Shown here one piece after another: positions 45,451 to 47,897 of a stretch of 64,000 nt of DNA. This DNA comes from Marinobacter salinus (GTDB lineage: Bacteria > Pseudomonadota > Gammaproteobacteria > Pseudomonadales > Oleiphilaceae): assembly GCF_001854125.1 (NCBI RefSeq), contig NZ_CP017715.1, forward strand, positions 3,658,001 to 3,722,000, given 5' to 3'. The position numbers and the translations under genes were made by a program. The notes under the pieces were generated by a model, which was given only the letters and a program-made list of their open reading frames with translations, had not been told where the DNA came from and searched no databases. The stretch's first letter is position 1. Every line of letters begins with the position of its first letter.

Positions 45451-46101
45451 ATGAAAACCAGAGATAAAATTCTGCTCTCCAGCCTTGAGCTGTTTAACGA
45501 GCGCGGGGAGCGCAACGTAACCACGAATCATATTGCCGCCCACCTGGCGATTTCGCCGGGCAACCTGTACTACCACTTCCGTAACAAGTCGGACATCATT
45601 TACGAGATTTTCCTGGAATATGAAAAGCTGGTGGACTTCTACCTGGATATTCCGGAAGACCGGTCAATGACGCTGGAAGACATGACGTTTTATCTGGAAT
45701 CGGTGTTTGACGGCTTGTGGAGTTACCGGTTTTTTCACCGTGATCTGGAGTATCTGCTGGATAGTGATCAGCGCCTGCGTCGGGACTACCGGGACTTTAC
45801 CAACCGGTGCCTGGCTGCCATCAGCCGTATTTTCGAGAAGCTGGCGGAAGCGGGCATTATCGAGGCTCAGCCGGAGGATCTTCGTGCCGCAATGTCGCTC
45901 AATGTCTGGCTGGTTATTACCAACTGGATGGCGTACCTGAAAACCGCACACGCTAGTGAAGATTCCGCCAACCCCACACTGGATGAGCTGAAGCAGGGCA
46001 TTTATCAGGTTCTGACACTCGAGATTCCTTATCTGATGGCGGATTATCGAGAGCAGGTTATGGCTCTGAGAGAAAAGTACCGACCGTCCTTGCCGGGGTA
46101 A
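45451..46101 (+). CDS. laoR: TetR family regulator, LaoR-like
   Basis: The 216-residue protein starts MKTRDKILLSSLELFNERGE and has the TetR helix-turn-helix at about residues 22-45 (TTNHIAAHLAISPGNLYYHFRNKSDI). The rest is a helical ligand-binding domain. It is divergent from laoCBA, matching LaoR of Pseudomonas, a repressor relieved by long-chain aldehydes or related molecules (family knowledge). The palindrome at 45363-45380 is its probable operator and would give autoregulation. Confidence 0.82.
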   Translation: MKTRDKILLSSLELFNERGERNVTTNHIAAHLAISPGNLYYHFRNKSDIIYEIFLEYEKLVDFYLDIPEDRSMTLEDMTFYLESVFDGLWSYRFFHRDLEYLLDSDQRLRRDYRDFTNRCLAAISRIFEKLAEAGIIEAQPEDLRAAMSLNVWLVITNWMAYLKTAHASEDSANPTLDELKQGIYQVLTLEIPYLMADYREQVMALREKYRPSLPG

Positions 46102-46158
46102 AAGGGCGTTTCAACGTCCTCCATTGGCGTAGAGTTGATTAAAATGTGATCGATTGGG

Positions 46159-46185
46159 GAACTTTGCCCGAACAGGCCGGTCTTA
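46159..46185 (+). promoter_or_regulatory. Sigma-E/AlgU-like promoter for candidate sRNA
   Basis: GAACTT (46159-46164) is a perfect extracytoplasmic-sigma -35; 16 bases later TCTTA (46181-46185) matches the -10 consensus TCTGA at 4 of 5 positions. Spacing is that of sigma-E/AlgU promoters. Transcription would begin near 46191. Confidence 0.55.
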
Positions 46186-46190
46186 TTTGG

Positions 46191-46302
46191 TGACGTTGGG
46201 AATCCGGACATTCCTTGCGTCTCCTGAGTGAGTTCTCAGGTTTTAGCACGTCGCAAACCCTGACGTTTCACCGGTCTGTTCTTTGGCAGACCGGTTTTTT
46301 TT
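46191..46302 (+). ncRNA. Candidate small regulatory RNA at the Spot 42/ErsA locus
   Basis: The 209-bp spacer between laoR and the convergent engB contains no open frame of note but has a promoter (46159-46185), an internal hairpin CCTGAG/CTCAGG around 46223-46240 with a hexanucleotide loop, and a strong intrinsic terminator ending about 46302. The implied transcript is about 112 nt. Spot 42 in enterics and ErsA in Pseudomonas occupy the same position, convergent to engB (yihA), and ErsA is sigma-22 (AlgU) dependent. The pyrimidine-rich stretch TTCCTTGCGTCTCCT before the hairpin could pair with ribosome-binding sites. Homology by sequence could not be tested; 5' end is estimated. Confidence 0.6.
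46270..46302 (+). terminator. Intrinsic terminator of candidate sRNA
   Basis: ACCGGTCTG (46270-46278) pairs with CAGACCGGT (46287-46295), loop TTCTTTGG, followed by an uninterrupted T-tract to 46302. This is a textbook terminator on the plus strand. It ends 8 bases short of the engB stop codon, on the opposite strand to that gene. Confidence 0.88.
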
Positions 46303-46310
46303 GTCCTTTT

Positions 46311-46952
46311 TCAGGGCGTCTCTTCGGTATCTTCTGCCTCCAGCCAATCTGTCAGTGCCGCACGGCAGTCCTCAACACCTTGCTTTGAGGTGGCTGAAAA
46401 CATAATGAGATGTTCAACGCACGAGAACGACTTCAGGTTTTTCGCGATGCCCAGCATGGCGGTCTTGGCCTGGCCGAATTTCAGTTTGTCTGCCTTGGTC
46501 GCCAAAATCATCAGGGGAAGGTTGTTATGTTCACACCATTCCACCATCATTTGGTCGAATTCGGTTAGCGGGTGGCGGATATCCATCACCAGCACGAGGC
46601 CGCGCAGGCAGCGTCGGTCGTTCAGGTAATGCCCCAGGTGCCGTTGCCAGTCGTCCTTCATGTCCCGGGAGACCTTGGCGTAGCCGTAGCCCGGCAGATC
46701 AACCAGGCGGCAGCCTTCGCGGTTGAGTGAGAAGAAGTTGATCAGGCGGGTACGCCCCGGCGTTTTGCTCGTCCGGGCCAGCTTGCCGTTGGCGGTGATC
46801 GCATTCATCGCACTGGATTTTCCGGCATTGGAGCGGCCGGCAAAGGCAACTTCAGCGCCGAAATCCGGCGGGCACTCGTCTAACCTGGAAGCGCTGATCA
46901 GGAAACGGGCACTGTTAAAAGAGATGGTTTTTTGAGTCAGATCAGGGTCCAC
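46311..46952 (-). CDS. engB: Ribosome biogenesis GTPase EngB (YihA/YsxC)
   Basis: The 213-residue GTPase assists 50S ribosome assembly. G1 is GRSNAGKSS (about residues 39-47), G3 is DLPGYG, and G4 is TKADK; the TPGRT switch is intact. It starts GTG after AAGGAAA. Downstream, on the other strand, lies the candidate sRNA; upstream and divergent is cytochrome c4, the same order as in Pseudomonas. polA, the usual neighbour beyond the sRNA, is replaced here by laoR. Confidence 0.95.
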
Positions 46953-47788: not shown

Positions 47789-47897
47789 ATTGCTTAACGG
47801 TCTGTAACCGTCTCTTTTGGCAGCTTGTATGGAACTTTCCGGGTTGCCTGAGTCATAATCCCTCACACTTACGAATTCACGAGACCGGAGATGCTTA

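Follow-up and report, generated by a model that had tools for sequence, protein, structure and literature searches.

In this work we describe a candidate small RNA gene of about 112 nucleotides that lies convergent to engB in Marinobacter salinus and is kept, together with a sigma-E/AlgU-type promoter, across its genus. The window referred to below is the whole stretch of DNA that was analysed, 64,000 nucleotides of contig NZ_CP017715.1. Our preferred reading, which we hold at a probability of about 0.8, is that the gene encodes a trans-acting small RNA whose own sigma-E (AlgU) promoter would drive transcription during envelope stress, and that it is the genus version of an old engB-linked locus that includes ErsA.

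A sigma-E-type promoter and a candidate small RNA gene beside engB

The locus comprises the following features, with coordinates given in the window:

45451..46101, + strand: TetR-family regulator gene (PF13972, PF00440), 5' of the RNA and on the same strand
46141..46145, + strand: A-rich stretch, candidate UP element, 14-18 bases 5' of the -35 element
46159..46164, + strand: -35 element GAACTT, sigma-E/AlgU-type (GGAACTT when read from 46158)
46165-46180, + strand: spacer of 16 bases between -35 GAACTT and -10 TCTTA
46181..46185, + strand: -10 element TCTTA
46190..46302, + strand: candidate small RNA gene, about 112 nt, with a start predicted at 46190-46192 from fold and conservation
46311..46952, - strand: engB (ysxC/yihA) GTPase gene, convergent (TIGR03598 at 234 bits, above cut-off; PF01926)

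The RNA thus begins 89 nt past the TetR-family gene and ends 8 nt short of the engB stop. An earlier note on this DNA had claimed a perfect GAACTT, a 16-base spacer and TCTTA followed by a transcript devoid of a coding frame; the promoter is present at 46159-46185 exactly as described, and no open reading frame of at least 20 amino acids lies fully within 46190-46302, the six of this length that overlap it all extending outside. Its broader proposal of a non-coding RNA that runs convergent to engB and has a promoter of sigma-E/AlgU type is likewise supported; ErsA has the same place in Pseudomonas aeruginosa PA7. No sigma-70-like site was seen in 46080-46330. The A-rich stretch upstream is possibly an UP element, columns -18 to -14 being moderately conserved (0.23-0.55 bits, 107 loci).

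Genome-wide, GGAACTT-N15-17-TCNNA occurs at 18 sites versus 35 for the reversed control, and since the motif alone is not enriched we did not take its count as evidence. Similarly, the single terminator-like site in the 251 bases from 46080 to 46330, at 46270, is little above the shuffle mean of 0.6. The locus is nevertheless more than chance: it forms a block conserved in the genus, its promoter letters hardly vary between flanks that are not conserved, and its structure covaries. The window holds a further sigma-E-like promoter, GGAACTT-N15-TCATA at 47831-47857 (+), which lies about 40 nt 5' of the dsbA start (47898); none was found upstream of PA7 dsbA by a similar pattern.

The same genome encodes a sigma factor of the RpoE family, its gene scoring above cut-off (275 bits). 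The sequence GAACTA-N16-TCTAT upstream of this algU gene is similar to the RNA promoter, and the frames that follow, named from sequence, are presumably mucA- and mucB-like. By this resemblance, AlgU would be the factor that reads the promoter of the small RNA.

Conservation and rearrangement within the genus

A 221-bp query matched 115 of 124 genus genomes by DNA search, and 86 of 117 matches start at query position 74 (46173) or later, so that they cover the RNA more than the upstream DNA. A promoter was found in 109 of the 110 loci read, the remaining one (L118) having no -35 call. The -35 element reads GAACTT in 99 of these, GAACCT in 8, and AAACTT and GAACTC in one each; the spacer measures 16 in 107 of 109 and the -10 element carries TC in all 109, both counts being partly favoured by a choice of promoter site that rewarded these features. 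Across the 107 loci with a spacer of 16, hexamer columns hold 1.6-2.0 bits and the TC columns 2.0, and most upstream and spacer columns fall below 0.5.

The 110 loci leave out five matching genomes (G011, G062, G063, G066 and G096), in four of which RNA and promoter were also seen (L274, L276, L271 and L270), G063 being the unread one. Of the nine genomes that the DNA search left unmatched, the structure model R2 recovers three (G070, G122 and G109) at E values of at most 1e-3; its match in G045 is weak (0.026) and away from engB, and the remaining unmatched genomes are not convincing. Beside engB the RNA is absent in G045, G046 and G087, where engB itself is present. The copy in G109 (L362) appears decayed, with promoter and hairpins 1 and 2 lost and hairpin 3 plus a terminator-like remnant left after a TetR gene. 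The earlier note had named a lack of conservation of promoter and hairpin in related genomes as grounds for abandoning the RNA; across Marinobacter genomes both are conserved.

The association with engB itself is more variable. Of 110 loci, 88 have engB within the fetched downstream flank and 22 do not; these 22 loci carry other DNA 3' of the terminator and have kept RNA and promoter, which speaks against a mere terminator of engB. In L010 the intervening DNA holds a gene for a DctP-type solute-binding protein (PF03480, Pfam), and DctP-type frames were also seen in five other opened separated loci (L003, L018, L045, L056 and L066), one of the six thus being confirmed by Pfam. Many separated loci carry ATGTTACCGGTAACAT, or its beginning, upstream of the intervening gene, a sequence that we take to be a GntR-type operator. 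In G042, engB lies about 4.7 kb from the RNA. At L023, L041 and L100 the engB frame extends, up to its first stop codon, into the RNA gene, giving an antisense overlap.

Fold of the RNA and its evolutionary support

The sequence 46190-46302 folds into four hairpins, the last of them the terminator, at -44.6 kcal/mol (z -4.53), and none of 200 shuffles was as good:

46192..46221, + strand: hairpin 1, 11 pairs, loop CCGGAC at 46204-46209 with GGA at 46206-46208
46223..46240, + strand: hairpin 2 (CCTGAG/CTCAGG), 6 pairs, 99.7% of cells paired, both-sided change in 1 of 6 pairs
46241..46247, + strand: unpaired U-rich linker TTTTAGC, with CAGGTTTTAGC common to the sister-genus locus L136/L364
46248..46266, + strand: hairpin 3, 6 pairs, loop CAAACCC at 46254-46260, near-invariant in 57 sequences and the most conserved part
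46270..46302, + strand: intrinsic terminator, an 11-pair stem at 46270-46295 followed by a T tract

The 6-bp hairpin of the earlier note is hairpin 2, and its 9-bp terminator stem with T-tract stands insofar as nine plain pairs and the T tract are there, the full stem reaching 11 pairs when G-U pairs are counted. Both of the hairpins that it claimed are present; it had missed those at 46192-46221 and 46248-46266.

Covariation was assessed on alignment A1. Clustering of 109 sequences had given 58 representatives, of which A1 holds 57, L119 being omitted by hand (its 5' part is short as cut, 96 nt). In this alignment 92.1% of cells pair, and 19 of the 34 pairs show a both-sided change in one sequence or more, against a shuffled mean of 11.6 from shuffles that do not keep relatedness. 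Cells with both-sided change number 104, compared with 34.1 in shuffles and 18-34 for slid structures, although the tested structure is the single-sequence fold of the window RNA mapped onto the alignment, and a structure taken from one of the aligned sequences beats slid controls partly for that reason alone. The signal comes from hairpin 1, with 10 of 11 pairs, and from the terminator, with 8 of 11; there is so little variation in hairpins 2 and 3 that covariation does not probe their pairing. An RNAalifold structure (model R1), which on an imperfect alignment joined the loop of hairpin 1 to the terminator by base pairs, was set aside. An extra hairpin-like insert occurs between hairpins 2 and 3 in L095, L099, L101, L106-L110, L116, L117 and L120.

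These patterns bear on whether the RNA is transcribed in its own right. It might instead be no more than the 3'-terminal part of the TetR-gene mRNA, terminator included, or a two-way terminator shared with engB, perhaps processed into a 3'-UTR small RNA. The TetR-family gene lies 89 nt upstream on the same strand, read-through from it would stop at 46270, the sole terminator-like site of 46080-46330, and in L362 only the 3' part is left after a TetR gene. However, a promoter that is almost letter-perfect amid unconserved flanks, and a first hairpin whose stem and loop are conserved and covarying although dispensable for termination, make this origin quite unlikely.

Furthermore, the conserved loop of hairpin 1 raises the question of whether the RNA acts mainly by binding a protein, for instance of the CsrA/RsmA type, rather than by pairing with mRNA. 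GGA is found in this loop in 57 of 57 sequences, on a covarying stem. The CsrA/RsmA motif is ANGGA, yet two positions ahead of GGA the sequence has C (T in many relatives) where the motif has A, the window RNA has a single hairpin with GGA in its loop, and hairpin 3 is even more conserved than the GGA loop. We therefore regard action through a protein as improbable, and hairpin 3 as the likely contact region of an RNA that would work by base-pairing.

Comparison with ErsA, Spot 42 and other known RNAs

Rfam gave no gathering match in the whole window. The ErsA model (RF01719, Pseudomon-1) found nothing in 46000-46500 even at E values up to 10, and exceeded its cut-off (50 bits) in none of the 124 genus genomes, which were scored with stricter filters. 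The same model scored the PA7 RNA, as a positive control, at 137.8 bits, and passed its cut-off in 17 of 381 genomes of the order, all in family f20, presumably the Pseudomonas family. Judged by the Rfam model that defines ErsA, therefore, the RNA is not ErsA; the Spot 42 model had no match in the window or at the locus either. Thus the earlier proposal of an ErsA/Spot 42 positional homologue holds for place, orientation and promoter type, and fails for family membership: the covariance models that it had suggested as a check recognise neither ErsA nor Spot 42, and polA is not adjacent. Below cut-off, 27 listed matches of RF01719 fall in 23 of the 124 genus genomes, all away from the places of the RNA and several at contig ends. 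Such matches in G052, G121, G073 and others are repeated within the genome or lie near contig ends, and possibly represent another, repeated C-rich element.

RybB and MicA are short enterobacterial Hfq-binding RNAs expressed from sigma-E promoters; the Marinobacter RNA is like them in promoter class, but they are absent from the Rfam matches of the window. A 38-letter piece taken from the RNA beside engB in the genus Pseudomonas matches 13 named records, including P. aeruginosa PA7, where the promoter reads TGAACTT...TCAGA and the order is polA (as we take the neighbouring gene to be, from its translation and from recall), RNA, engB. In excerpts of published work, ErsA is placed between polA and engB (PMC8575079), is connected with AlgU control, Hfq and the repression of algC, and is called a functional orthologue of Spot 42 (both PMC8395346), so that a conserved engB place is in itself no new idea. 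An excerpt of a review reports that ErsA pairs with the algC ribosome-binding site, names ErsA and Bc7 separately, and gives RybB as a proposed homologue of Bc7 (PMC6321483).

The Marinobacter RNA resembles ErsA in being convergent and adjacent to engB, and in its sigma-22/AlgU-type promoter, several hairpins and terminator. It differs in the lack of an RF01719 match and of C-rich loops, and in its upstream neighbour, a TetR-family gene in place of the polA that marks ErsA; a TetR-like frame stands upstream in the 11 genus loci listed, the window's own included. A strict identity with ErsA (or Spot 42), down to a common seed and to targets like algC, is accordingly highly improbable, even though place, orientation and promoter class agree. 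We consider it very likely that the RNA is the locus equivalent of ErsA, though not a recognisable ErsA or Spot 42. With Spot 42 (spf), which sits between polA and yihA/engB according to an excerpt of PMC3295665, it shares the place next to engB, but not an Rfam match or, within 46080-46330 of the window, a sigma-70-like promoter; control of spf by CRP appears in the title of a reference in that paper.

The best sub-threshold Rfam match was to anti-hemB (RF02837, 'Burkholderia RNA 7'), at 23.6 bits and E 0.0025 against a cut-off of 49.5. The terminator probably accounts for this match, given that ncS54 and others match in the same way, and we did not accept weak Rfam matches (anti-hemB, ncS54, mmgR and others) as a sign of descent, several unrelated families matching the same terminator region. 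Among 20 loci of the class that were scanned, two engB-linked convergent RNAs exceed the anti-hemB cut-off (L333 at 58.4 and L332 at 51.5 bits); unlike the Marinobacter RNA, both have C-rich loops. Anti-hemB corresponds to ncS04 of PMC5688073, which lists no significant change of ncS04 in its seven conditions. Among the literature matches listed, comprising titles and the starts of abstracts with subscription journals mostly uncovered, none treats ErsA jointly with anti-hemB or gives such a joint account of the engB locus, and none of those on Marinobacter small RNAs describes the present RNA.

Sigma-E-type promoters and C-rich RNAs beside engB outside the genus

In the genus Pseudomonas, a convergent engB-side promoter of sigma-E type was found in 25 of 25 genomes searched. 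Elsewhere in the order, outside the Pseudomonas family, 24 of 61 loci carry one, where the reverse strand gives 4 and shuffles 0.83 (13 versus 1 and 0.05 with a strict pattern), and in other orders of the class 19 of 48, compared with 2 and 0.75 (8 versus 2 and 0.08); these figures are no census, given that the pattern was written after the genus promoters had been seen, that loci were partly hand-picked and that most have no match. The order sample consisted of 65 fetched loci of 132 engB loci outside the genus (the 25 best-scoring and 40 hand-picked across families), from which four of the Pseudomonas family were removed, and L136, found by R2, was kept out of the 24 of 61; the class sample consisted of 48 fetched of 128 (28 best-scoring, 20 hand-picked). 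Sub-threshold RF01719 matches convergent to engB were also found outside f20, in G192 (40.7 bits) and G229 (37.6); that in G172 (33.9) lies after engB on engB's own strand. Two C-rich engB-side RNAs stand in tandem in L351, the first with its own sigma-E-like promoter, and G302 has two sub-threshold RF01719 matches about 200 nt apart.

The RNAs at these places differ from those of Marinobacter chiefly in their loops. C-rich, ribosome-site-like loops occur in 3 of 109 genus RNAs versus 59 of 64 engB-linked RNAs elsewhere (21 of 25 in the order, a row that takes in L136 as well as L174 of the Pseudomonas family; 25 of 25 in the genus Pseudomonas; 13 of 14 in the class), as judged from single-sequence folds with RNA ends set at the first T run. 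This count omits the order locus L170 and the class loci L322 and L351, whose site lies beyond -345, and the class loci L345, L354 and L359, which have no T run. CCCC anywhere in the RNA follows the same division, with 62 of 64 elsewhere versus 10 of 109 in the genus.

Two relatives occur in the same family. The sister-genus locus L136/L364 (G307) has GAAACTT-N16-TCACA and keeps CAGGTTTTAGC...ACCCTGAC; L365 (G468) has GGAACTA-N16-TCTAA, a hairpin-2-like CCTTGAG...CTCTCAGG, and AAACCCCAACG at the position of the genus GCAAACCCTGACG. Both were found by R2 at the convergent engB place and strand, L365 as the third of 29 matches (E 0.0025). Over 90 sources of engB loci, R2 gave five matches at E values of at most 5, of which only L136 fell below 0.01 (3e-4, in the right place), and no significant match at the engB place outside the family. 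The others were L315 (0.042, past engB on the strand of engB itself, with a second match at 0.7 elsewhere) and, in other families, L175 (0.21) and L152 (1.0), both in the right convergent place and strand, which are suggestive only, as the terminator there draws R2. In a search of the order, where nine candidates per genome were scored with stricter filters, R2 returned 16 genus members, G307 (E 0.005), three matches at 0.07-0.09 and a second G028 match at 0.076, the last two groups not being used. The sister genus looks intermediate, and, mainly from these two genomes, a stepwise passage from the C-rich loops to the loop now seen in Marinobacter may be proposed.

These observations allow two accounts of the wider distribution. 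The engB-side promoters of other families could have arisen independently, with no single ancestral locus: R2 has no significant match to RNAs from beyond the family, and 37 of 61 order loci and 29 of 48 class loci are promoter-negative by pattern. We find this rather doubtful in view of the strong excess over reverse strand and shuffles, the position of 39 of 44 promoter sites at -104 to -262 relative to the engB stop, the multi-hairpin, C-rich build held in common, and the graded relatives L136 and L365. On balance we lean, if only somewhat, towards one ancestral sigma-E-driven engB-side locus across much of the class, which would have given rise to Pseudomon-1/ErsA, anti-hemB and perhaps, after a promoter swap, Spot 42; in Marinobacter the promoter, place and several-hairpin build would have been kept and the C-rich loops rewritten into one invariant CAAACCC hairpin.

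Proposed mode of action and implications

Under the preferred reading of a trans-acting small RNA, envelope stress would lead AlgU to transcribe the gene from its own promoter, and transcription would stop at the terminator facing engB. The RNA would then be bound by Hfq via its U-rich 3' end and would pair with target mRNAs through the invariant hairpin-3 region (AGCACGTCGCAAACCCTGACG), perhaps also through the CCGGAC loop. The hairpin-3 contact would thereby replace the C-rich loops that other engB-linked RNAs offer to ribosome-binding sites.

What is new here is the spread of the sigma-E promoter at the engB place, the link to anti-hemB and the change of loops. This work adds an undescribed, genus-wide candidate envelope-stress small RNA to Marinobacter, and suggests that ErsA, anti-hemB and the Marinobacter RNA are branches of one engB-linked locus; it also illustrates how place and promoter together reveal candidate small RNA relatives that covariance models miss. 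If the proposed history is true, an envelope-stress regulator would have changed its whole set of targets with its wiring unchanged, and the combination of a frozen promoter with changing targeting loops would make target switching by small RNAs testable.
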